This document shows, piece after piece, positions 8,070-19,327 of a stretch of 64,000 nucleotides of DNA (within the stretch, counting starts at the first letter, position 1; the number at the start of each line of letters is the position of its first letter). This stretch comes from Lysobacterales bacterium (lineage in GTDB: Bacteria > Pseudomonadota > Gammaproteobacteria > Xanthomonadales > SZUA-36). The translations under genes were made by a program, and so were the position numbers. The notes under the pieces are model-generated. The model had not been told where the DNA came from and made no database searches. It saw only the letters and a list, made by a program, of their open reading frames with translations. The stretch spans positions 1-64,000 of the forward strand of contig JABDLD010000079.1 of assembly GCA_013001885.1 (NCBI GenBank). Direction: 5' to 3'.

Positions 8070-10154
8070 CTACCGGGTCGCGGAGCCCGCATGGCTGGCC
8101 CTTTTATTCATTACCGTGGCAGGCACCGGGCCGTTTCCGAGCGGCGGGCTGAGCCACTCGATCAACCCTATGTCATCAAACCAGCTGTAGTGGTCGGCTG
8201 AAGAATCCTCCGGGGTGATTTTCAAAACGACGCGATATGAAATGGCCGTGACCCGGGGGGAATCGAAATCAAAACGTAATTCCTGCCAGACGCCGGGCGA
8301 AAGTTCCATTTGCCCGATGGGCCTGAGCCTGGCCGTCGCCAGCGCTTCCAGCCGGTTCTCGTCTCTTTTGCGCCATTGCTGATAAGCGGTCACAACCGCA
8401 GGCCCGGAACTCCGGGCTGACACGACGAAACTGGTCGGGGTGCCGGGCTTGAACGTGTATTCGAACGTCCGCATTCCGAGGGTTCCTTCCGGCTGTCCAG
8501 CCGGTATCACCAGTTGCATAACGTTGCGGCCGCTGGGTGCGTCGTCCCGCTGAATGATGGCCTGAGTGCCGTCCTCTAACCAGCTCAAATCCGGGGCGTC
8601 ATGCAAAAAGTGGGATTCCAGGTGGCCCATCGGCAGCAGGTCCTGGCCCAGAAAAAATTTTCTGTCGTCACCCGCCTGCAGGGCAATGGTTTCAACCGAT
8701 TGGTTCCAGTCAGCTGCAGTGAGCCGCCAGACCGTGTTTTTCGCGGAATACTCTGCCGGAGGCGGCGAATAGGCCAGGGGCGAAGAATCGGCCGTGCCAG
8801 GCTGCGGCAAAATGACCGCGTTTCCACCGGAGGCCCGAAGTTCGACCCCGCGCCGGCTGGAAAGATCAAACGCCCGCCTCAGGATTGCACCGCGGAACGT
8901 GTCCGTTGCCGGCATCGGGGTATAGCCTTTGATGCGCAGCGGCATCACCTCCGCCCGGTGCAGACGGCCACCGTCCATCCAGACGTAAAGCAAGTAGGAT
9001 CGCTTGGTGGCGTAGTGGAACTGGTCGAAAATGAAATTGCCCATTGAATAGGCGATCAGCTTGCCGTTGTAGATTTCAAAACCCTGGACAATGTGCGGAT
9101 GATGGGCAATGGCCAGCACGGCGCCGTCGTCGATGGCCTGTTTGAGCCGCGTCTCGGTGGCCAGTGTCGGCTCATCGGTGTATTCCCGGCTGCCATGGTA
9201 CTGGACCACCGGCAAGTAACCCTGTCCCGCCTCGTTCCGGACGGCATAACGGATATTCGCTGTCGTTCCGAACGCAGCACCGCCTTTGCCGTCACCCTGG
9301 GCAACCTGGTTCGGGGTGAAGTTACCCGCCCAGCCCAGAAAACCGAGGAAACTCATTGCATTACCGTTAATGCCGGTTCTAAACGACCGTAGCGATTGTG
9401 ATTCGGTCAATCCGGCGCCGGACCAACCCAGGCCGGAAGCGTCAAGCGCATCCAGCGTCGATTCTAGCCCGTCCTGCAGGTAGTCATACGTGTGGTTGTT
9501 TCCCAGGGTTACGTAATCGACACCGGAGACCTTCAGCGCCTGCAGCGCTTCCGGCGGTGTGAAGAAAACATAGGATTTGGGCGCTTTCTGCTCCGGCCGG
9601 GAAGACATGACCTGCGTTTCCAGGTTGACGGAGGCGAAGTCCGCCAGGTCGAGATAAGGCTTCATGTGCCGCAGCAGGGCTTTCGTGTCGTCTGCTTCGT
9701 AGCCTTCGCGGATTAACTGCGGTTCGCCTTCGTTCGGCTCGGAGAATCGCCGCCCCATCATCGCGTCGCCGCCGAATGCGAGCATAACGCGGTTCGCAGC
9801 CCGCTCGACCAGCGTAACTTCGGGCACTTCGGCCGCACCGCCCGGGCCGCTTTGCAACCAGCTCAGTTCCAACGGGCTGTAGGCATGAATCATCGGGAAA
9901 TGGTCTTCCGCCGAGTAGTGCAGCAGATAGATATCTCCCGCGGCGGTTTCGATTGCAAAACGCCCTCTGGCGTCCGTCAGGGCAGTGGCTTCTCCGGCAC
10001 GCACCGTCACTCCAGGCAGGGGCTGGCCGGATTCGGAAAGCACCCTTCCGTTTATGCCGACACCGGCGAGACCCGGTAGTGATAACGAAAGCAACAGCGC
10101 CAGTAGCAGTGAACGGAGGGTCCGGCTTTTTCTCAAGGGTTCATGGTCAGTCAT
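8070..10154 (-). CDS. CapA-family (PGA_cap) metallophosphatase-like exported protein
   Basis: A 694-residue exported protein. The signal peptide (hydrophobic core about 14-30) is followed by a carboxypeptidase-regulatory-like beta domain (about 33-90, GRVLSESGQPLPGVTVRAG). The PGA_cap domain follows, with FGGDAMMGRRF (127-137), NLETQV, GNNHTYDYLQDGL, VVQYHGSREY, IAHHPHIVQGFE and YSMGNFIFDQ. These are the conserved metal-site blocks of CapA/PgsA proteins, a calcineurin-like fold linked to poly-gamma-glutamate and capsule handling. The last 220 residues or so look like a carbohydrate-binding beta sandwich. No capB or capC homologues are nearby, so poly-gamma-glutamate synthesis is not implied. 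The combination with a regulatory-like N-terminus and a jelly-roll C-terminus suggests an envelope hydrolase or phosphatase on a polymer, which is inference. Confidence 0.82.
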   Translation of the reverse strand: MTDHEPLRKSRTLRSLLLALLLSLSLPGLAGVGINGRVLSESGQPLPGVTVRAGEATALTDARGRFAIETAAGDIYLLHYSAEDHFPMIHAYSPLELSWLQSGPGGAAEVPEVTLVERAANRVMLAFGGDAMMGRRFSEPNEGEPQLIREGYEADDTKALLRHMKPYLDLADFASVNLETQVMSSRPEQKAPKSYVFFTPPEALQALKVSGVDYVTLGNNHTYDYLQDGLESTLDALDASGLGWSGAGLTESQSLRSFRTGINGNAMSFLGFLGWAGNFTPNQVAQGDGKGGAAFGTTANIRYAVRNEAGQGYLPVVQYHGSREYTDEPTLATETRLKQAIDDGAVLAIAHHPHIVQGFEIYNGKLIAYSMGNFIFDQFHYATKRSYLLYVWMDGGRLHRAEVMPLRIKGYTPMPATDTFRGAILRRAFDLSSRRGVELRASGGNAVILPQPGTADSSPLAYSPPPAEYSAKNTVWRLTAADWNQSVETIALQAGDDRKFFLGQDLLPMGHLESHFLHDAPDLSWLEDGTQAIIQRDDAPSGRNVMQLVIPAGQPEGTLGMRTFEYTFKPGTPTSFVVSARSSGPAVVTAYQQWRKRDENRLEALATARLRPIGQMELSPGVWQELRFDFDSPRVTAISYRVVLKITPEDSSADHYSWFDDIGLIEWLSPPLGNGPVPATVMNKRASHAGSATR

Positions 10155-10220
10155 GGGGATAGTTTAACGGTAGTTACAGAATGTTTGGCCTGTTCTGAAG
10201 GCCCGGCAGTTGGCCGGAGG

Positions 10221-10616
10221 TCAGGGTTCCGGTTGCGGACAAGGTCCGGGGCTGCACACGCTGACGCTGTCGGCATTGGCCACCAGCGCGATCAGGGCCG
10301 CGATACCGAGCGCGCCCAGGACATAGCTCCAGGTGCTGTCGTTGTCTCCTTTCGGTGTCTCAACGCGCAGGCTCTGCATGTCTTCAAAGCGGAAAAAACC
10401 CGGTTTACCGCCGAGACCATCGGCACTCATCTCGGTGACTCGAAACTTGTGGGTCTTTCGCTCCAGCGTCTTTACTTCCACCAGGCTGCCGTAATCTACC
10501 CCGCGCGCAGCAGACTGGCGCATGGCGTTCTCTATATCCACGGGTTGCATCGAAGAACAGGCCGTCATGTTGACGAGCATCAGGCAGAGAACATAACCTT
10601 TGACAAAACGCAGCAT
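10221..10616 (-). CDS. Putative lipoprotein
   Basis: A 131-residue protein beginning MLRFVKGYVLCLMLVNMTAC. The MTAC lipobox puts the lipidated cysteine at residue 20. The mature part is mostly polar (MQPVDIENAMRQSAARGVDYGSLVEV...) and includes a short beta region around VKTLERKTHKFRVTEMSADG that resembles small outer-membrane-associated lipoproteins. A second hydrophobic segment near the C-terminus (SYVLGALGIAALIALVA) is followed by a short tail with two cysteines and prolines. A lipid anchor plus a transmembrane helix is slightly unusual. I do not recognise the family. It is transcribed in the same direction as the small membrane gene upstream, but a terminator at 10661-10678 separates them. 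Confidence 0.6.
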   Translation of the reverse strand: MLRFVKGYVLCLMLVNMTACSSMQPVDIENAMRQSAARGVDYGSLVEVKTLERKTHKFRVTEMSADGLGGKPGFFRFEDMQSLRVETPKGDNDSTWSYVLGALGIAALIALVANADSVSVCSPGPCPQPEP

Positions 10617-10660
10617 AGAAACGCAATTGTACTGCTAACCCGGGGGCGGTAAAACGAAAA

Positions 10661-10678
10661 CCCCGCCTCGCAGCGGGG
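10661..10678 (-). terminator. Rho-independent terminator after the YqaE-like gene
   Basis: A perfect six-base GC stem (CCCCGC, loop CTCGCA, GCGGGG). On the minus strand it is followed directly by TTTTCGTTTT. It lies about 30 bases beyond the stop of the small membrane protein gene at 10708, the expected position for its terminator. Confidence 0.75.
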
Positions 10679-10707
10679 TCCTCGCGGAGAGTGAGAAATC
10701 AGGGGCG

Positions 10708-10941
10708 TCAGTATGCGCCGCGGTAGTATTCCCGGCGCCAGCGATCCGGCTTTTCGTACATTGCCGCATCGATGATCGACCAAAGGTGGATGATCCAGCC
10801 CAACAGGATCAGCCACAGCAGTGCGGTCATGATGAACATGAACCCAGCGAGCAGCCAGCGGCCCTGCAGCAACTGGCCGAGGCCCGGAATGAAAAAACTC
10901 GCCAGGGCGGCAAGGACGTTTCCACAGCTTCCGCTTCCCAT
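10708..10941 (-). CDS. Small YqaE/Pmp3-like membrane protein
   Basis: A 77-residue protein with two closely spaced hydrophobic helices (about 9-25 and 31-56, FMFIMTALLWLILLGWIIHLW). It starts with a glycine/alanine-rich segment and carries the turn IPGLGQLLQGRW, then ends in the charged tail AAMYEKPDRWRREYYRG. The size and the FIPGLGQ-type loop resemble YqaE/Pmp3 proteolipids and small TM2-like proteins; I cannot separate these by eye. Members are often stress-induced and influence membrane potential. A strong ribosome binding site (GGAGG) sits seven bases before the ATG, and a rho-independent terminator follows the gene, so it is probably a single-gene unit. Confidence 0.65.
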   Translation of the reverse strand: MGSGSCGNVLAALASFFIPGLGQLLQGRWLLAGFMFIMTALLWLILLGWIIHLWSIIDAAMYEKPDRWRREYYRGAY

Positions 10942-10980
10942 TGTTAACCTCCGATGAATGTACAGTTAGGTAGATGCAGA

Positions 10981-11010
10981 TTGCATGCCAACATTTTATC
11001 TGTTTAATAT
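10981..11010 (+). promoter_or_regulatory. Candidate sigma-70 promoter upstream of the giant enolase/PPDK gene
   Basis: TTGCAT at 10981-10986 and TAATAT at 11005-11010, separated by 18 bases, in an AT-rich pocket of otherwise GC-rich sequence. It would give a leader of roughly 140 bases before the ATG at 11154. The -35 match is only partial, so this is a weak prediction. Confidence 0.25.
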
Positions 11011-11153
11011 CATGTAGTTAAAGTTCCCTTGCGCAACTGGCGCGGTGTATTCGACTGCTTTTTAGCCTATTTGGCCGCTCAGCGGGCGGGGCCTGACTCA
11101 TGTCATTGTTGAGCGGTTGACCCGCGGGTAGAGTTCAAACCCACCCACCGGGG

Positions 11154-14100
11154 ATGCGCGAAGTGGGCCCAGAGACCATACCGCAAGCTCTGTTCGAGCG
11201 AATTCTGGCCAGGATCGGACGACGCCGGAGGCGGGAGATTGTGGCCGCCGGAATGTTTTTGCAGGAAGGCTGGGTCATTGCGAACCACATACTGGTCTCT
11301 TTTCACGTGGCGTTTATCTCTTCCGTGCTCGCCATACCCGGCGATGTCACCACGCGCACAGAAGTATTGCGGTTTATTTTCACCAGCCGGGAGACGCTTG
11401 TTTCAGCGCTGTTCACCTACATCGTATTCCACAGTGCAATCGCGCTCCATGAATTGGGCCACTTTCTCGAGGCTGCCCGCCTGCGGGCCCTGACAGACTC
11501 CATCCAGGATGGGGTCGAGGCCCGTCTGGCCCAACCGTTGATCCCACGTTTCCGTTACCTGGCCGGTTTATTCCTGCAGATTCCTTATGGCCGGGCGACC
11601 GGTATCAAGCGTGAGGGATTGAACTACTATCCGGATGCGCCCTACAACCTGGCGGTCGCTGCTGCCGGTCCGCGCGCGAGTCTGCGGGTATCACTGGCAA
11701 CGCTGCCTTTGGCCGGACTTCTTTTGGCTGCGGGGATGTTGATTGACTCTTCCGCCGCGCTCAACCTGGGCCGTCTGTTACTGGGCCTGGGCGTGGTCAG
11801 CGGCCTGGATTTCCTACTGGCGGATCCGGGAAAGTATCGTGAATTCAGGCGCCGGGAACGGCGGGCAAGCGAGACGGCCGCCATGCTTCCCGCAAGTGAC
11901 AGTTGGCTTGCCTCGGTCGCAGAAGTAAAGCAACGAATCGTTCAGCGCAGCATGCAGGAAGCCCTGCACCCGCGCCTGGGTCTGGTGCGGGCGCCGTGGC
12001 AGTTCCGCAACTGCGGAATGGGCGGGCGCCACACCGAAAAGGAATACCCTGAATCCAACATCAGTATGCAGGAAGCGATGTTTCTGATCCTCGGCGCCGA
12101 GGACTCGCAGGAGGCGCAGGAGATGACCGTGCGTCTGCAAAACCGGCTCAAGGAGATACTGGAAAAAGCGGAAGGCTGCAGGGTCATGGGCATTGGCCTG
12201 GAAGGGGGGCTGGCGCCTTATGTAGACCGGGGAACCTACGAGCTGCCTGAATTGCGCCTGTGGGCCATGATGAAGCAGGCGATCAGGGAATGCGGCTACC
12301 GCCCCGGGCTTGACGTCGCGATCGCGCTGGATCCCGCATTGACCGAACTGGAAATCGCTTATCGTGAAGAATTCGACATCCCGGACAGCGTCGGCATGTA
12401 CCTGTTCTGGCGCGATCATTCCAAGAAAGTGATGGACCGGGAGGCAGTCCTGGGGGTGTACGAAAAAGCAATACGTGAGTACGACATTCCGATTCTGTCC
12501 ATCGAGGACGGCTTTTCGGAGCACGATGTCGAGGGCTGGAAATTGCTGTTATCCAGCCTTGGCGACCGGCTTCTGATCATTGGCGATGATCTGGTGACCA
12601 CCAACGACCGCACCATCGAGACGGCGGCAAATGACGGACTGATCAACACGGTGCTGGTAAAGGCCAACCAGATCGGCACATTGTCCGAGACCCTGCTGGC
12701 GGTACTGGTAGCCATCGGCAAGGGGCAGGAACTGGTAGTGTCGCACCGCTCAAAGAGCCCGAACGACGACATGGAGGCGCATATCGCGCTCGCCACCAAC
12801 GCCCTGGGCCTGAAGTGCGGCGGCGGCGCGAACACCGAGAGGCTGATCAAGTACCAGGCCGTGACGACGCAAATGGAACGTGTGCTGGAGGCCGCGGTCG
12901 GGGAGCCGGACCTGCCGGACTTCGCCCATGTCGAGCGCCTCAGGGCCAGGGAAGAGCCGACCAATGCAGGAATTCCCACGGTTGGCGTCGATGTCCACAT
13001 GGCGACACCCGGCGGGAAGCCGGGCAGCCTGGTGCGAATGACGTTCCACGGGGCCACGCCGCTGGGGACATCGTCCGGCTCGGCCGAGGCCGTTCACCTG
13101 GTCGACAATGCATTCGAGCGAGCCGAATACCTCGAAGCCGTGGAAGCGCACTACGGCCTGCTGCGAGAAACCGAGCCGGGTGTGTTTTGCTTCAGAAGCG
13201 AAGTCACCCGCGCCACGGTGGAAGCAACGGGGGACGATGTGCTGATCGAACTATTCCGGCGCGCGGGCCGCTATGGCGGAAAAGGGTGCCTGTATGCGGT
13301 CGATAACGTCCTGGAATATGCTGCTCCTTACTTCATCAACAGGGACGTTGCCCGGTGGAGCCTGCTCGACATTGACCGGGCCCTGCTCAGCCTGGAACTG
13401 ACGACGGCGCAACGGCGCGGCAAGTTGCCGCCTGGTGCTGAAGCCGAGAATGAAATTCGCTTGATGCAGAGAAAACAGAACGTCGGCATGAACTCGATCC
13501 TGTCGATCTCACTGGCCCTGGCGCGTGGTGTGGCGCACGTTCGCGGACAAGACCTGTACGAATTCCTGCGCGAAGAAATGCTGGTGATCATTGAACGCCT
13601 GGCCGCCGTGCACGGAGTCACCATTCACGGTAGCCGTTTCCCGGATTACGTCGATGCTTTACGCGAGGTGAACATGCAACTCGAAAAGGATAAAAAACCG
13701 CTTCATGAAGCTCTTCGGGACGTCACCGGCATTTATACTGGAAACGGAAATCAGGCGGCCGCACCCGCGTCGGCCCTGGATCCTGAGAACAGGGCAGGTT
13801 CACCTTTCGACCCGGCGGAAAGCGAGCAGTTGGAGGCGCTTAACCGGGCCCTGATTTCCGCTTACGGCCCCGATGGAACCGACGAGGCGCACCAGCTGGC
13901 TTTGCGGCAATACCTTCAGACCATGCGTTTCCTGCACCGCCGTTACCGGATGTTTGAAATTGCCAATCACCGCATCTTCAAATGCGGCGACACCCTGATC
14001 GTGCCCTACGATGCCCATGGACGTTTGGCGATCCATGAAATCAAACCGGAGGCGAGCCGGGTCATCGTTCAGTCGCGGTTGCCGATGGGTAAACTGATCA

Positions 14101-17100
14101 CCGACGATTTGATCGCAGATCTCAGCGGCTGCCGCGGAGAAGTGGTGGATCTCGAGAGAGAGATTTACCACCTGGAAGTAGACGACACACCGGCGATACA
14201 GGTATCACGCCTGCGAGACCTGGCGAGGCTGCTGAGACGACTCAATACTTGCGGCAGCCGCCACGAAGCCGTTTATTTGTTGCGCTTCCTCGTGGCTCGT
14301 CTATGCAGCGCCTCGTATCGCGGGGTTGCCGGGGCGAAAAATCTCAAGCCGGAAATCGTTCGCGTGCGCAACGAGCTGGTCGAGTTCATGAACGGACCTT
14401 TCGCCCAGCGTCTCAGGCTGCCAACCCGAATCCTGGTTCGCAGCATATCGGGCCTGGTATCCCGGCCCAAACTGATCGACGAAGTGTGGCAGGACACGAT
14501 CGACCTGTCGGAGGTGCATGCACGGGGCAGCGCGATTGCCAACGAGATTCGCCGCAGCACGCACCACGCCATGGGCAAGCAGACGCTGAAGCTGGCCCGG
14601 GCCTACCGGCAATGGCTGCAGACCGGTGCAGCCGAGTTTCCGGACCCCGATCGCGAGACACCCACGGATGTCGATCAGGCAGCGCGCTCCAATCCGGTGG
14701 TGCTTGAGCTGGTTGCGCGCATTGTGAGCGACCTCGAACAGTTGCTGGGAACCTCGCAAATGGCCACCCGCATGGAGGAGTGGCGCGATACCTATGCGCG
14801 CGAGCTGGCCCTCTGTGAATCGGGCAACACGCTGCAGGAAGAGCTGGATTCGCTGGTGACCAACGGCGTTCGCGCCGGCAACCGGTGGGTTATTCAGCAC
14901 CGTTTACGCAGCCTGGCGAACAAGGCTCATGGCGGAGCCTGGGCCGCCGAGGCACGCGATTCCTTCAGGGCCAGCCTGGACCAACTACAGCAAAGCCTGC
15001 CGGGAGACGATGGGTTCCTGCCGGAACGCGCAGAAGGCGCAGCGCGAGAGGCGGTTGAGCACTTCGAGCAGCGGATTCGGCATGATCATCAGGACCGCCT
15101 GTTTTACGAACTGGACGTGCTGCTGAAGTGTTATGAAGGCGACAGGCCATTCGAGGTATTCGAGCGCAGCTGCGCGCTGCGGCGCCGTCTCTCCGCGCAA
15201 GTGGGCAACGGTGTTTTTCCCAGTCAGCGATATCTGCTGCACCAGTTGGATTGCTTGCTGGAGGAGTTGGGGTTCTTCGCGCTTCGGCACGTGGCCTCGG
15301 GTTATCACGATAACGGAGTGGATCTTGTCGAATGCCTTGCAATCGTGTTCATGTGTGCGGGCAACCTGGATCGTGATGGTTTGTACTCACGCGAACTTTG
15401 GGACCTGTCATCCATGCTGGCGAATCCTTCCCGCACACCGTCCGAGATGCTGGACGTGCTCGAACACATACAGAAAAACTATCATCGCCTGGTGCTCCGC
15501 GTCAGCGAAGCTTACGACGTAATGGCGGAGCACCTGGGTTACAGCGTGGACGAAATGCGCGCCGTGCAGGGCAATTACCAGCGCACGATGCATGATCTCA
15601 ACAGCCTGGTCCATTTTTCCGACCTGGCGCGCGCTCATGTTTCCGAGCAGCGTGAGAACATTCCCGAGGCCGGCGCGGGGGCGCTGGGTGAAGAACCCTG
15701 GGATTTCGTTCACCTGTCCCATGGTGAGGACATCAAACGCCGGGTGGAAGACCGGACCGCGGCCAGCCTGCAGGCGCGTTTCGGCGGAAAGGGTTCCGGC
15801 CTCATTTATATTTCCTACCTTGGCGTTCCTACCCGGGACGCCTTCATTATCCCCACCGTGCTGCCGCGCATGAATCTGCACGAAGCCGAAGCGGAAAAAC
15901 TCGACCGGGAATTGATGCGGCATGTCGGCATATTGCAGGACGATATTGCCCGCAACGACGCCCGCAACGTTCGACTGGGTGACCCGGATACCCCGTTGTT
16001 GCTGGCTGTTCGCGGCGGCTCGGTATTCTCCATGCCGGGAATGCTTTCTACCGTCGTTTTCGCCGGCATGACCGAGGCCGTAGCCGAGGCGCTGGCGGCA
16101 AAGGACGAGTGGTTTGCCTGGGATTCTTTCCGACGATTTCTCGCCTCCTACGCCGCGGCCATCTGGCATATGGACCTGGAAGAACTCGATCTGGTCGAGA
16201 AGGCCAAGCGCCGCCAGGGCGTTGATTTGAAAATCGAACTCCCGGGAGCGGCGATGCGCGAAGTGGTCGAGGCGTCAAAAGACGCCATTCGAAAGGCGGG
16301 GCATGGAGAACATCTGGATGCGATACTCAATGACGCGGAGCTCCAGGTTAAAAACGCCATGCGGGCAGTTCATGCCTCCTGGGAAGGCAAACGCGCGCGG
16401 GAGTACCGCTCCATCAAGCATTTGAGTGAAGGCTGGCATACCGCCGTCATCGTGCAGGAGATGGCTTGCGGAAACCGCTCGAATGAAGAAGACCTCAAGC
16501 CCGGCATGGACGAGATGCGGATTTCGCTCACCGGTGTCATACCCAACACCCGCATAACCACTTCGGGCATTCGGGTCTTTACCGGCGACGTCAAATTCAG
16601 CGCCTGCGGCGATGACCTCGTCGGCGGCCTGACGGCGGCGCAGTCCTTTGAGCCGGTGCAGGAGCTGCGCTCCCAGGCGCCCATGCTGGAACGAAAATTG
16701 AACCACATCAGTGCGCGCCTGAGAAGGTTCCTCGGGTCGGATACAGAAATCGAATTTACCGTCGAGCGCGGAATACTGAGCATCCTGCAGACCCGAAGCG
16801 CGCAGACTGAGCATCATTTCTCTCCGCGCACGTTTGACGATCCGGGTGACGCCGATGGCCGCGGTATCGGAATCAGCGGCGGTGCATTCCGCGGCGTGGT
16901 GGCCTTCAACGAGCTGGATGTCGCAAGGCTCAGAGAATCCGGAGCCGTCGGTGAAGCCGGCGTGGACGGAATCCTGCTGCTGGTGGAAAACCCGATTCCG
17001 GACGAGATTCCGCTGATTCTCTCGGTCGATGGCCTGCTGGCTGCAAAGGGCGGTTCTACATCGCATGCGGCCGTCGCCGTCCACGGTATCGATGAAAAAC

Positions 17101-17300
17101 CCTACTCCGCTGTGCTGGGCGTGTCCGAGTTATGTGTGTCCGGCGATGGAACCGCGTTACTGGGGCCGGACGGCGAACCTGGGCTAGCCATTCACGCCGG
17201 CGATGTCGTTTCCATTCACGGGCAGACCGGAGAAGTTTACTCAGGAATACGGCAAATTCTGCGGGTGGGCGAGACTGACGAGGATGGTCTGGCTGCCTAA
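11154..17300 (+). CDS. Giant fusion: M50-like membrane domain, circularly permuted enolase, PPDK-like ATP-grasp and phosphohistidine domains
   Basis: One uninterrupted 2048-residue ORF. Residues 1-230 hold several membrane helices with HELGH (99-103), AGPRASL (171-177) and GLDFLLADPG (217-226), a pattern like M50 site-2 proteases. Residues about 275-580 are the enolase barrel: His293 and Glu307 (SMQEAMF), Glu350 (LEGGLAP), Asp393, Glu451 (SIEDGF), GDD at 477-479, Lys503 (VKANQIGT), HRS at 531-533 and Lys554. Residues about 604-815 are the enolase capping domain (PTVGVDVHMATPGG, GKGCLYAVDNV, NVGMNSILSISLALA), which is N-terminal in every normal enolase, so the domain is circularly permuted. 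Residues about 860-1515 are mostly helical and unrecognised. Residues about 1540-1885 resemble the PPDK nucleotide-binding domain (GGKGSGL, SMPGML, ILQTRSAQ). His1971 in AAKGGSTSHAAVAVHG is the phosphohistidine. The PEP-binding barrel of PPDK is missing. The ATG is the first start after an in-frame stop at 11118-11120 and has no clear Shine-Dalgarno sequence. The function is unknown. Confidence 0.9.
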   Translation: MREVGPETIPQALFERILARIGRRRRREIVAAGMFLQEGWVIANHILVSFHVAFISSVLAIPGDVTTRTEVLRFIFTSRETLVSALFTYIVFHSAIALHELGHFLEAARLRALTDSIQDGVEARLAQPLIPRFRYLAGLFLQIPYGRATGIKREGLNYYPDAPYNLAVAAAGPRASLRVSLATLPLAGLLLAAGMLIDSSAALNLGRLLLGLGVVSGLDFLLADPGKYREFRRRERRASETAAMLPASDSWLASVAEVKQRIVQRSMQEALHPRLGLVRAPWQFRNCGMGGRHTEKEYPESNISMQEAMFLILGAEDSQEAQEMTVRLQNRLKEILEKAEGCRVMGIGLEGGLAPYVDRGTYELPELRLWAMMKQAIRECGYRPGLDVAIALDPALTELEIAYREEFDIPDSVGMYLFWRDHSKKVMDREAVLGVYEKAIREYDIPILSIEDGFSEHDVEGWKLLLSSLGDRLLIIGDDLVTTNDRTIETAANDGLINTVLVKANQIGTLSETLLAVLVAIGKGQELVVSHRSKSPNDDMEAHIALATNALGLKCGGGANTERLIKYQAVTTQMERVLEAAVGEPDLPDFAHVERLRAREEPTNAGIPTVGVDVHMATPGGKPGSLVRMTFHGATPLGTSSGSAEAVHLVDNAFERAEYLEAVEAHYGLLRETEPGVFCFRSEVTRATVEATGDDVLIELFRRAGRYGGKGCLYAVDNVLEYAAPYFINRDVARWSLLDIDRALLSLELTTAQRRGKLPPGAEAENEIRLMQRKQNVGMNSILSISLALARGVAHVRGQDLYEFLREEMLVIIERLAAVHGVTIHGSRFPDYVDALREVNMQLEKDKKPLHEALRDVTGIYTGNGNQAAAPASALDPENRAGSPFDPAESEQLEALNRALISAYGPDGTDEAHQLALRQYLQTMRFLHRRYRMFEIANHRIFKCGDTLIVPYDAHGRLAIHEIKPEASRVIVQSRLPMGKLITDDLIADLSGCRGEVVDLEREIYHLEVDDTPAIQVSRLRDLARLLRRLNTCGSRHEAVYLLRFLVARLCSASYRGVAGAKNLKPEIVRVRNELVEFMNGPFAQRLRLPTRILVRSISGLVSRPKLIDEVWQDTIDLSEVHARGSAIANEIRRSTHHAMGKQTLKLARAYRQWLQTGAAEFPDPDRETPTDVDQAARSNPVVLELVARIVSDLEQLLGTSQMATRMEEWRDTYARELALCESGNTLQEELDSLVTNGVRAGNRWVIQHRLRSLANKAHGGAWAAEARDSFRASLDQLQQSLPGDDGFLPERAEGAAREAVEHFEQRIRHDHQDRLFYELDVLLKCYEGDRPFEVFERSCALRRRLSAQVGNGVFPSQRYLLHQLDCLLEELGFFALRHVASGYHDNGVDLVECLAIVFMCAGNLDRDGLYSRELWDLSSMLANPSRTPSEMLDVLEHIQKNYHRLVLRVSEAYDVMAEHLGYSVDEMRAVQGNYQRTMHDLNSLVHFSDLARAHVSEQRENIPEAGAGALGEEPWDFVHLSHGEDIKRRVEDRTAASLQARFGGKGSGLIYISYLGVPTRDAFIIPTVLPRMNLHEAEAEKLDRELMRHVGILQDDIARNDARNVRLGDPDTPLLLAVRGGSVFSMPGMLSTVVFAGMTEAVAEALAAKDEWFAWDSFRRFLASYAAAIWHMDLEELDLVEKAKRRQGVDLKIELPGAAMREVVEASKDAIRKAGHGEHLDAILNDAELQVKNAMRAVHASWEGKRAREYRSIKHLSEGWHTAVIVQEMACGNRSNEEDLKPGMDEMRISLTGVIPNTRITTSGIRVFTGDVKFSACGDDLVGGLTAAQSFEPVQELRSQAPMLERKLNHISARLRRFLGSDTEIEFTVERGILSILQTRSAQTEHHFSPRTFDDPGDADGRGIGISGGAFRGVVAFNELDVARLRESGAVGEAGVDGILLLVENPIPDEIPLILSVDGLLAAKGGSTSHAAVAVHGIDEKPYSAVLGVSELCVSGDGTALLGPDGEPGLAIHAGDVVSIHGQTGEVYSGIRQILRVGETDEDGLAA

Positions 17301-18325
17301 GGAGCCGATTCTGCGACCTTGACGACCAGTTTTCCGAAGTTCTTGCCTTCAAACAGCCAGTTGAAGTATTCCGGAGCTTTCTCCAGGCCTTCCAGCAGGG
17401 TTTCGCGGTACTTCAGTTGACCGCTGGCTACCCACTCGACCAGCTTCCGGTTGGCTTCCGCGTACTCAGACACGTAATTGAACACCAGGAAGAACTGGTG
17501 CCATGGCGGATTTTCCAGTTCGCCGAAAATATCGAATGGGGTGCGGGTCTGCGCGATCTTTTCTGCGTTGTAGCTCGATATGTAGCCGCAAATCGGAACG
17601 CGCGCCCCCGGGTTCAGTTGCTTTGCCACGGCTTCAGACAGCGCGCCGCCGACGGACTCAAAATAGATATCGATGCCGTCGGGGCAGGCGCGGGCCAGGG
17701 CTTCGTCCAGGTTTTCGTTTTTGTAGTCGATGCACTCGTCAAAACCCAGCTCGTCTTTGACCCAGCTGCATTTTTCCGGTCCGCCGGCAACACCGACAAC
17801 GCGCAGTTTCCCCATTTTTCCCAGTTGGCCGACAACGGAACCCACGGCGCCCGACGCAGCGGAAACAACCAGCGTCTCGCCCGCGCGCGGCTTCGCTTCG
17901 CGCAGCAAACCAAAATAGGCCGTCCGCCCCGGCATGCCGCATACCCCGAGATAAGCGGGGAGCGGGACCTGTGTTGGATCCACCGGGTAAATCATCAGGT
18001 CGTTCTCCTCACCGACATAATACGACTGCCAGCCCGACGGGCAGCACACATGGTCACCTTCGTTGAAACGCAGGGATCTCGATTTGACTACGATGCCTGC
18101 CGATTCTCCGGTGATGACTCCGTCGATCGGAACGGGGTCGGCATAGGATTTCTCTTCGCTCATGCGTCCGCGCATGTAAGGATCCAAAGAGAGATAAAGC
18201 ACCTTGATCAGGACCTGTCCCTTTTCAAGTTTCGGCAGTGATTCATGTTCAATCCGGAAGTTTTCCGGGGCGGGCATGCCCTTTGGCCGGCTGGCGAGGA
18301 CGATTCGTGTGTTTTCGACGGTCAT
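17297..18325 (-). CDS. NADP-dependent medium-chain oxidoreductase (zinc-free MDR, CurA/leukotriene-B4-dehydrogenase type)
   Basis: A 342-residue protein from the ATG at 18325 (MTVENTRIVLASRP). The longer frame to 18373 adds residues that do not fit the family and would run into the divergent gene. The N-terminal GroES-like domain contains LSLDPYMRGRM and GVITGESAGIVVKS, typical of the prostaglandin reductase/CurA group. The Rossmann part has VSAASGAVGSVVGQLGKM and a KDELGFDECIDYKNE block. Zinc ligands of alcohol dehydrogenases are absent, as expected for this group. It reduces activated double bonds of enones using NADPH; the natural substrate is not evident. The stop overlaps the end of the giant ORF by four bases on the opposite strand. 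Its neighbours on the other side are two more dehydrogenases. Confidence 0.85.
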   Translation of the reverse strand: MTVENTRIVLASRPKGMPAPENFRIEHESLPKLEKGQVLIKVLYLSLDPYMRGRMSEEKSYADPVPIDGVITGESAGIVVKSRSLRFNEGDHVCCPSGWQSYYVGEENDLMIYPVDPTQVPLPAYLGVCGMPGRTAYFGLLREAKPRAGETLVVSAASGAVGSVVGQLGKMGKLRVVGVAGGPEKCSWVKDELGFDECIDYKNENLDEALARACPDGIDIYFESVGGALSEAVAKQLNPGARVPICGYISSYNAEKIAQTRTPFDIFGELENPPWHQFFLVFNYVSEYAEANRKLVEWVASGQLKYRETLLEGLEKAPEYFNWLFEGKNFGKLVVKVAESAP

Positions 18326-18367
18326 TGTGTAATCATAACCGGAGAACCGGCAAAGAAAGGAGTTTCG

Positions 18368-19327
18368 TTGCATAACGCGGACACAATCAGCCGGCCTTCG
18401 GTCCTGGTTCTCTCGCCGGACGCGGAAGCTTATTTTCCGGTGCTGGAAACGCTGGTCAGCGAAGGGGTTGAACTGGCCGCTGCTACTTCACCGCATGCCG
18501 CGCGCAAAGTTTATTCAGGTCAGCCGGTGATTCTCGGCCAGCCGGACCTGGTTGCTGAAGTTCTTGCCGATATGCCCGAAGTGGCTTGGGTACAGTCCAG
18601 CTGGGCCGGTGTGACTCCGTTGCTGGATGCTGGGCGTTCGGATTATCAGCTCACCGGAGTCAAGGACACGTTCGGGCCGCAAATGACTGAATACGTGCTG
18701 GCTTACCTGCTGGCCCATGAGCTGAAGCTTTTTGAGCGGCTCGGGCGCCAGGCGAACCGCAGCTGGTGGGCGCAACCATCGGGGACGCTGAAGGGTAAAA
18801 CCATCGGGATCATGGGAACGGGATCGATCGGCAGTCATATTGCCCGTTTGGTGGGTCTTTTCGGCGCCCGCATCATCGGCTTCAGCCTGAGCGGCGCCCC
18901 GGTAGAGGGCTTTGACAGGGTGTTTGCCGGTGACCGGCTGGCCGATTTCCTGGCCGATCCCGACTACATTGTCTGTGTGCTGCCGGATACGCCCGGGACC
19001 CGCCATTTGCTCGATGCTGAGGCATTCAAACTGATGAAAAGCCACGCCCTGCTGGTGAACATCGGGCGCGGAACAGTGGTTGATGAAGCAGCCCTGGTTC
19101 AGGCTCTGGAGGCGGGGGAACTGGCGGGCGCCGTGCTGGACGTCTTCCAGCAGGAACCGTTGCCGCCGGACAGCCCGTTATGGCACTCGCCGGGCGCGAT
19201 CCTGACGGGCCACGTTGCGGCGCGCAGCCTGCCGCAGGACATAGCGGGAATTTTCATCGAAAATTATCGGCGATACTGTGCCGGTGAACGGCTCAGATAC
19301 CGGATCGATTTCGACCGCGGGTACTGA
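18368..19327 (+). CDS. D-2-hydroxyacid dehydrogenase family protein (TTG start)
   Basis: The frame is open from 18245, but the first 41 codons are antisense to the divergent oxidoreductase. A TTG at 18368, five bases after AGGAG (18358-18362), gives a 319-residue protein and is the preferred start. The Rossmann domain has GIMGTGSIGSHIARLVGLFG. The catalytic triad of the family is visible as Arg in NIGRGTVVDE, Glu in FQQEPLPPDSPLW and His in LTGHVAA. Substrates of this group include glyoxylate, hydroxypyruvate and other 2-ketoacids; GhrA-like activity is one possibility. It is followed after about 30 bases by an SDR gene on the same strand, probably as an operon. Confidence 0.85.
   Translation: MHNADTISRPSVLVLSPDAEAYFPVLETLVSEGVELAAATSPHAARKVYSGQPVILGQPDLVAEVLADMPEVAWVQSSWAGVTPLLDAGRSDYQLTGVKDTFGPQMTEYVLAYLLAHELKLFERLGRQANRSWWAQPSGTLKGKTIGIMGTGSIGSHIARLVGLFGARIIGFSLSGAPVEGFDRVFAGDRLADFLADPDYIVCVLPDTPGTRHLLDAEAFKLMKSHALLVNIGRGTVVDEAALVQALEAGELAGAVLDVFQQEPLPPDSPLWHSPGAILTGHVAARSLPQDIAGIFIENYRRYCAGERLRYRIDFDRGY

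Follow-up and report, generated by a model that had tools for sequence, protein, structure and literature searches.

A single gene of a Lysobacterales bacterium (SZUA-36) appears to join three things in one chain: an M50-like membrane unit, a circularly permuted enolase and a histidine dikinase derived from PPDK. The gene lies on contig JABDLD010000079.1 of assembly GCA_013001885.1, of which positions 1-64,000 of the forward strand were analysed (the window, 64,000 nucleotides), and it forms an uninterrupted open reading frame (ORF) of 2048 residues with an ATG start at 11154..17300 on the + strand, on which all features given below also lie. We put at about 0.5 the probability that its product is a membrane-anchored, active enolase combined with an autophosphorylating histidine dikinase, an accessory device at the node of 2-phosphoglycerate (2-PG) and phosphoenolpyruvate (PEP). 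Each recognisable part departs from its nearest family in one defining respect (domain order, a missing barrel or profile score) yet keeps the catalytic residues that were checked, so the system would be new in kind. Neither a natural permuted enolase nor this fusion was found described in the open-licence PubMed Central literature, in agreement with a first-pass annotation of this DNA, which knew of no protein with this architecture; a trypanosome flagella paper returned by a search for an enolase and PPDK fusion concerns, in its accessible part, a different protein. The permutation, a 620-residue middle domain and the spread and modularity of the family were found here, beyond that annotation.

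The domain assignments of the first-pass annotation (enolase, PPDK-type nucleotide-binding and swivel regions) were borne out by Pfam and NCBIfam. On the 2048-residue protein, Pfam matched Enolase_C at residues 289-572 (8e-48), Enolase_N at 595-752 (4.2e-12, with a further stretch to 805), PPDK_N at 1611-1774 (2.8e-11) and PEP-utilizers at 1941-2026 (1.8e-4; 21.5 bits, slightly below the cut-off of 23.1). The NCBIfam PPDK model TIGR01828 reached an E value of 3.2e-64 over the whole protein, with its best stretch at 1536-1885. Below, part 1 denotes residues 34-815 (membrane unit and enolase) and part 2 residues ~884-2041 (middle domain and dikinase).

The enolase domains stand in swapped order

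The enolase C-terminal (TIM barrel) domain comes first (residues 275-582; 11976..12899), as indicated by Pfam and by the fit of a structure model to enolases, and the N-terminal domain comes second (residues 595-815; 12936..13598) and carries an insert, some 50 residues long, that ordinary enolases lack. A scan with one genome per species gave 55 relatives, each of them labelled in its record title as a metagenome-assembled genome (MAG). The order C-N was found in 51/51 family ORFs with both domains, the window copy (as L002) included and nine ORFs missing one or both domains left uncounted, whereas the ordinary order, N-terminal domain and then barrel, was found in 9/9 ordinary enolases of these loci, which were also the nine from which the profiles were built.

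Conservation was scored on an alignment (A1) of 38 of 42 sequences, including the window copy; four close gammaproteobacterial relatives (L003, L007, L017 and L021) are out, and L049 and L055 are not in it, their called starts lying downstream. Enolase_C and Enolase_N were both present in all 38, and after re-ordering by script the permuted and ordinary enolases could be aligned across both domains. Thirteen positions are invariant in 38/38: S640, H293, E307, E350, D393, E451, D478, D479, K503, H531, R532, S533 and K554. From this alignment, and with the residue numbering of yeast enolase, we take them to be the equivalents of S39, H159, E168, E211, D246, E295, D320, D321, K345, H373, R374, S375 and K396, respectively. 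A predicted structure of the membrane-enolase half (870 residues; predicted local distance difference test (pLDDT) 84.4, predicted template modelling score (pTM) 0.81) matched enolases with Z 26.5 and a root-mean-square deviation (rmsd) of 2.3 over 283 residues, in the barrel only. The barrel is 32% identical to the genome's own ordinary enolase, and the NCBIfam enolase model scored 211.5 bits, under its cut-off of 300.

Around the active site the family also has features of its own. The longer loop of H159 carries NCGMGGRHT in 38/38 sequences, and SKSP stands in place of SGET (K in 37/38, the other positions in 38/38). Like enolase, the protein thus has both domains, the barrel fold and the 13 checked catalytic positions; unlike enolase, it has the domains swapped, a membrane unit in front, longer loops and a changed SRGNPT segment. 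Judged from sequence, this is a natural circular permutation of enolase.

An M50-like membrane unit precedes the enolase

The membrane domain (residues 34-236; 11253..11861) has 39 of 203 columns invariant among the 38 sequences. These include H99, E100 and H103 of a HELGH motif at residues 99-103 (11448..11462), each in 38/38, and elsewhere in the domain N44, H45, H51, N165, P173, D219 and D224, all likewise invariant; N44, H45 and H51 sit in the first helix. Hydropathy peaks at 41-59, 81-99 and 179-197, and the model predicts an extra helix at 200-223. Of the features of site-2 proteases of family M50, a HExxH motif placed by the model in a membrane helix and a later Asp, D219, were thus found in 38/38; by its position D219 would be a metal ligand.

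Profile evidence pointed the same way less firmly. Peptidase_M50 matched at E<=1 in 31/37 homologous membrane domains (best 7.9e-5), and a homologue scan alongside the window protein gave a best E of 1.8e-5, but the window copy itself scored 13-14.5 bits, below the Pfam cut-off of 27.2. In hhalign, the comparison with the genome's own RseP-like M50 protein paired HELGHF with HEFGHF and AAAGP with AAGP at a probability of only 12.9% (P 0.0022). A profile of the membrane domain (A4, 37 of the 38 sequences, L012 out) had no credible sequence relative in PDB, the best being a thioredoxin at E 1; the VIA rows for the first model cover the enolase barrel only and barely probe the membrane and N-domain folds. 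Since the profile and hhalign support is weak, we call the unit M50-like, a remote resemblance by sequence rather than membership of M50. It shares with that family the HExxH motif, the AGP segment and the later Asp, in the same order, and differs in the sub-threshold score of the window copy, the extra invariant N44, H45 and H51 and the attached enolase. The first-pass description "membrane protease-like" therefore stands as to a membrane unit with HELGH, but its protease side shrinks to this distant likeness.

Part 2 combines a probable PPDK-type dikinase with a new middle domain

The PPDK-type ATP-grasp nucleotide-binding domain (residues 1536-1885; 15759..16808) is followed by a phosphohistidine swivel domain (residues 1941-2026; 16974..17231), matched by PEP-utilizers in 24/24 sequences of an alignment (A2) of 24 out of 27 (L017, L021 and L039 out; a further alignment, A3, keeps 20 of these 24 rows, without L003, L006, L007 and L008). 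The swivel histidine, His1971 in GGSTSH (17064-17066, codon checked), is invariant in 24/24, as are K1546, R1620, E1865, E1867, Q1879 and R1881, so that both an ATP-grasp domain with its nucleotide residues and a swivel domain with its catalytic histidine were found throughout. The A2 profile matched PPDK in PDB at E 7.8e-71; in that alignment K1546 falls in the GGKG segment and R1881 in the LQTR segment, and the PDB matches include the K22A and R337A mutants of PPDK. In a second model (mean pLDDT 77.4), residues 1514-2041 matched PPDK (1dik) with Z 30.1 and rmsd 4.0 over 438 residues, swivel included. Rifampin phosphotransferase (5hv1) came next, with Z 14.9 and rmsd 3.4 over 225 residues, followed by PEP synthase (Z 14.2) and by HpeI, with Z 14.0 and rmsd 4.8 over 216 residues.

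By contrast with PPDK, the PEP/pyruvate barrel is missing. PEP-utilizers_C had no match in the window protein or in the 24 aligned C-parts, a genome search found none at the fusion locus, and the chain ends 22 residues past the swivel match; the NCBIfam PPDK score was 217 bits against a cut-off of 843. Part 2 is thus like PPDK in its nucleotide-binding and swivel domains, in order and sequence, and unlike it in lacking the barrel and in having a new domain of 620 residues ahead of these, preceded in turn by the membrane-enolase. Because the PEP/pyruvate-binding domain has been lost, exchange of phosphate between PEP and the histidine can no longer be taken for granted. The idea of the first-pass annotation that the two catalytic parts share PEP as a metabolite is weakened on two counts, the missing barrel and the separability of the halves described below.

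The middle domain (residues 884-1506; 13803..15671) is mostly helical according to the second model, and 58 of its 622 columns are invariant in 24 sequences, H1137-H1138 among them. No Pfam family was common to most of the 24 homologues; MbeD_MobD matched in 6/24 (best 4.6e-4), which was taken as a chance match. Modelled within the larger chain, the domain gave no Foldseek/VIA match above the level of a helical bundle, and the alignment to 5hv1, which covers 225 residues between 648 and 1114 of the model, falls outside it. The fourth hydropathy peak of the chain lies here, at 1387-1405 (1.42), and was not accepted as a membrane helix. The domain is rare, occurring in 2/294 genomes, centre included, of the phylum of a planctomycete carrier.

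Known PPDK derivatives offer precedents for such an enzyme. VadK (Rv1127c), as presented in the accessible part of its description, is a truncated PPDK that autophosphorylates His422 and was proposed to be a regulator (PMC13400623); like part 2 it has ATP-binding and phosphohistidine domains and no PEP barrel, whereas VadK is a protein of ~50 kDa and the fusion carries the equivalent as a tail, in a membrane chain that also holds an enolase and a new domain. In rifampin phosphotransferase, the place of the PEP barrel is taken by a separate acceptor domain (PMC4844700), and HpeHI is a two-component dikinase with its parts on two chains (PMC12167813); movement of the swivel is described for PPDK itself (PMC5371819). 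As far as the portions available of these papers go, rifampin phosphotransferase and HpeHI share with the fusion the ATP-grasp domain, the swivel histidine and, with the middle domain as the candidate, a separate acceptor domain where PPDK has the PEP barrel, but have no enolase or membrane unit (PMC4844700, PMC12167813). In the fusion, moreover, the candidate acceptor domain precedes the ATP-grasp and is at most a putative relative of theirs.

The fusion gene is real, accessory and modular

The frame runs from end to end (query residue <=36 to >=2031) in 21/55 loci. Compared with locus L011, which covers residues 111-1275 only, nonsynonymous (dN) and synonymous (dS) divergence was 0.019 and 0.179 in the membrane part, 0.017 and 0.202 in the enolase, and 0.021 and 0.170 in the middle domain; for the PPDK part, the comparison with L028 gave dN 0.178 and dS 1.81, the latter near saturation. 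The tested parts of the gene are therefore under purifying selection. We regard an artefact, in which an assembly join or frameshift merged adjacent genes, as a negligible prospect: nothing was found in its favour beyond an acidobacterial locus (L033) in which the halves are two adjacent genes, so that the arrangement can be split, whereas the end-to-end ORFs come from different assemblies and phyla. Together with purifying selection, these ORFs exclude a chance or assembly join and rule out a frame error, so the single 2048-residue frame of the first-pass annotation is genuine; neither the base error or assembly join that it had named as fatal nor separate parts in every other genome came to light. 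The start codon is less certain. Residues 1-33 have 0/33 columns invariant, and conservation begins at an in-frame ATG at 11253 (residue 34), which may be the true start. The GC content of the gene (0.603) is close to that of the window (0.590) and thus gives no sign of recent foreign origin.

The 21 end-to-end fusions come from Pseudomonadota, Acidobacteriota, Myxococcota, Gemmatimonadota, Thermodesulfobacteriota, Planctomycetota, Krumholzibacteriota and Aminicenantes, that is, from seven or eight phyla by record names and tree labels, depending on whether Aminicenantes is placed within Acidobacteriota or apart; several further loci are interrupted by contig ends. In 15 loci the membrane-enolase half occurs without part 2: these belong to WOR-3, Stahlbacteria, Omnitrophica, Cloacimonadota, Sifarchaeum, Borrarchaeum, a dehalococcoid and an unplaced bacterium, the two archaeal cases being known by their MAG record names. 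In a tree rooted at the midpoint only, one side, which has full support, consists of 12 copies without part 2; the other holds the fused copies, and the dehalococcoid copy branches at the base of the latter. The labels of L038 (fused; contig end, C-part unmatched) and L036 (alone; contig end, C-part frame on another contig) are uncertain. Among near relatives, the membrane-enolase was found in 14/61 genomes, the own genome included, all in the same family (14/37) and none outside it (0/24). In a wider draw from the class, with up to three candidates per genome scored, it was found in 1/274 genomes, the own one. This patchy distribution marks the fusion gene as accessory.

The same follows from the gene content of the window's genome. 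As the first-pass annotation had suggested checking, a second, normal enolase gene is present (on contig C30), which rules out the fusion as the cell's sole enolase; ordinary enolase was also found in 10/10 other genomes searched. The genome further encodes a PPDK-type frame of 932 residues with PPDK_N and PEP-utilizers_C (contig C6), a 586-residue PEP-utilizers_C protein of the size of enzyme I of the phosphotransferase system (PTS), and pyruvate kinase. With an ordinary enolase, a PPDK and a pyruvate kinase at hand, the fusion is best seen as an accessory device. A third PPDK_N-type protein was noted at G000:C2:11963-13090 (L104), with an open frame of 986 residues.

An ordinary enolase gene lies near the membrane-enolase in 8 of the 15 loci without part 2. 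In six of them it is the next gene downstream on the same strand; in the two archaeal ones it is convergent, with a small frame between. These nearby enolases are 75-96% identical within WOR-3/Stahlbacteria and 44-53% identical between WOR-3/Stahlbacteria, L051 and the archaeal pair. A proximity that recurs in two orientations and at such identities between groups supports a link with the 2-PG/PEP node, though it may be an ancient inherited arrangement, and some of the examined flanks are short.

Proposed mechanism and alternatives

On the reading that we favour, the M50-like membrane metal unit of part 1 is joined to a permuted enolase with a complete active site, which most likely still converts 2-PG to PEP and back, or acts on a very close analogue, on the inner side of the membrane. 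In part 2, ATP would load phosphate on His1971 of the swivel, which would most likely pass it on to an acceptor bound in the new middle domain, on the pattern of rifampin phosphotransferase; alternatively the swivel may have a partner protein as its target, in line with the proposal for VadK. Both parts would act together at the 2-PG/PEP node, and neither would be a housekeeping enolase or PPDK. A core glycolytic enzyme that is naturally permuted, that strong selection maintains across many bacterial phyla and archaeal MAGs, and that stands beside a conserved metal site of the membrane and, within one clade, is fused to a histidine dikinase devoid of the usual substrate domain, would be a new type of device in central metabolism. 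The domains, their order, the intact residues, their conservation and the modularity are apparent from the sequences, and from these we infer catalysis, membrane orientation, acceptor and purpose.

Several observations weigh against this reading. Two active-site or interface segments have changed: the Asp of DEGG is replaced by Leu (35/38) or Thr (3/38), and NAGIPT stands in place of SRGNPT (N, G and P in 38/38, A in 36, I in 33, T in 37), a segment that presumably lies at the enolase dimer interface. Ligand binding without catalysis, or action on a relative of 2-PG, would also be compatible with the conserved enolase site. In the second model the stretch of the swivel histidine (A2 residues 1094-1116) has a pLDDT <50. 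The halves also separate in both directions. A profile of part 2 found nothing in 16 of 20 genomes searched (the fifteen above and that of L054) and hits only in those of L018, L033, L036 and L037, while in L020, also of the Lysobacterales, part 2 starts at an ATG of its own, part 1 is missing and the sole enolase is an ordinary one; a tight coupling of the two activities is therefore not general. None of the four further genomes of its genus, with completeness of 76-95%, has the gene. No ordinary enolase gene lies nearby in the fused loci examined, and clustering of neighbour ORFs in the fused loci gave none common across phyla, only groups of 3-4 loci, mostly gammaproteobacterial.

A metabolite-controlled membrane protease or signalling protein, in which the enolase senses 2-PG/PEP and the dikinase ATP/AMP and both gate the M50-like unit, is a tentative alternative and on balance unlikely. 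SpoIVFB-type site-2 proteases are gated by nucleotide-binding CBS domains, and the HE.GH motif and downstream Asp are invariant here, with N44, H45 and H51 as strict as an active site and weak M50 matches in most homologues. In VadK, a PPDK remnant is likewise proposed to serve as a regulator (PMC13400623). Against such a protein speak the sub-threshold M50 score of the window copy, the weak alignment to the RseP-like protein and the want of a substrate gene recurring alongside across phyla; moreover, every checked catalytic enolase residue is kept, acid and base included, and a sensor needs less. It is more doubtful still that another phosphorylated acid, made or used by the dikinase, is the substrate of the permuted enolase, the whole being a bifunctional enzyme of a membrane-linked pathway. 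The family-wide differences next to the active site (the NCGMGGRHT loop, SKSP for SGET, Leu or Thr for the DEGG Asp) would suit another substrate, and the conversion of 2-PG to PEP is already covered by the ordinary enolase that coexists in the own genome and the ten others; all residues that contact the carboxylate, the phosphate and both metals are nevertheless invariant, and the proximity of enolase genes points to the 2-PG/PEP node.

The enolase barrel might instead replace the lost PEP/pyruvate barrel, the swivel histidine swapping phosphate directly with a 2-PG/PEP-type ligand held by the enolase. The protein does contain an ATP-grasp domain, a swivel and a TIM-barrel enzyme whose ligand is related to PEP, with no PEP-utilizers_C match, and fusion of the two halves occurs in many phyla. 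We nonetheless consider this a long shot: the enolase half occurs without the dikinase half in those 16 of 20 genomes, the large conserved middle domain is a simpler acceptor site, and enolase closes loops over its ligand. Hardly better than a long shot is the broadest proposal, in which this replacement couples the ATP/AMP pool, the 2-PG/PEP node and an M50-like reaction (proteolysis, lipid or transport) and the dikinase-less form is ancestral. If it were true, the swivel histidine would exchange phosphate with a 2-PG/PEP-type acid made at the membrane enolase site, and the membrane enolase would have begun as the dikinase-less form seen in the archaeal MAGs and several other bacterial lineages.

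Neighbouring genes and other observations

The window neighbours of the fusion gene are unrelated to it: a UvrD-type helicase, a PGA_cap protein, oxidoreductases and glycogen enzymes. A D-2-hydroxyacid dehydrogenase-type gene lies close by, at 18245-19327; a link to glycerate metabolism is imaginable, but no such family recurred when the neighbours of the relatives were clustered. Pfam searches on 20 neighbours in relatives and 10 window proteins gave no common theme. No RNA element reached the Rfam gathering score in 9000-19000, no tRNA was found in the 64-kb window, and promoter- and terminator-like sites near the gene occurred at chance level only.

Elsewhere, single central-carbon neighbours were seen, an acetyl-CoA synthase subunit near L035 and a malic enzyme-phosphotransacetylase adjoining L033. 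In six WOR-3/Stahlbacteria loci, which are near relatives of each other, the recurring neighbours are a protein of ~525 residues, a 4Fe-4S protein and a small family of 182-206 residues. Members of the latter (L041:11797-12357, 186 residues, no Pfam match, and others at L042, L045, L046, L047 and L049) lie downstream of the membrane-enolase, behind the enolase gene in those loci that have one. L010 and L011, both from Ww343, are two differing copies in one assembly, 67% and 96% identical to the window copy over the best segment, and represent either two genes or a mixed bin. Finally, an Omnitrophica locus (L050:751-10395) encodes a chain of 3214 residues with the membrane-permuted enolase in its middle; by eye, a dehydrogenase-like segment precedes it and a sugar-nucleotide transferase-like segment follows, with repeated LASNAGL-type linkers.

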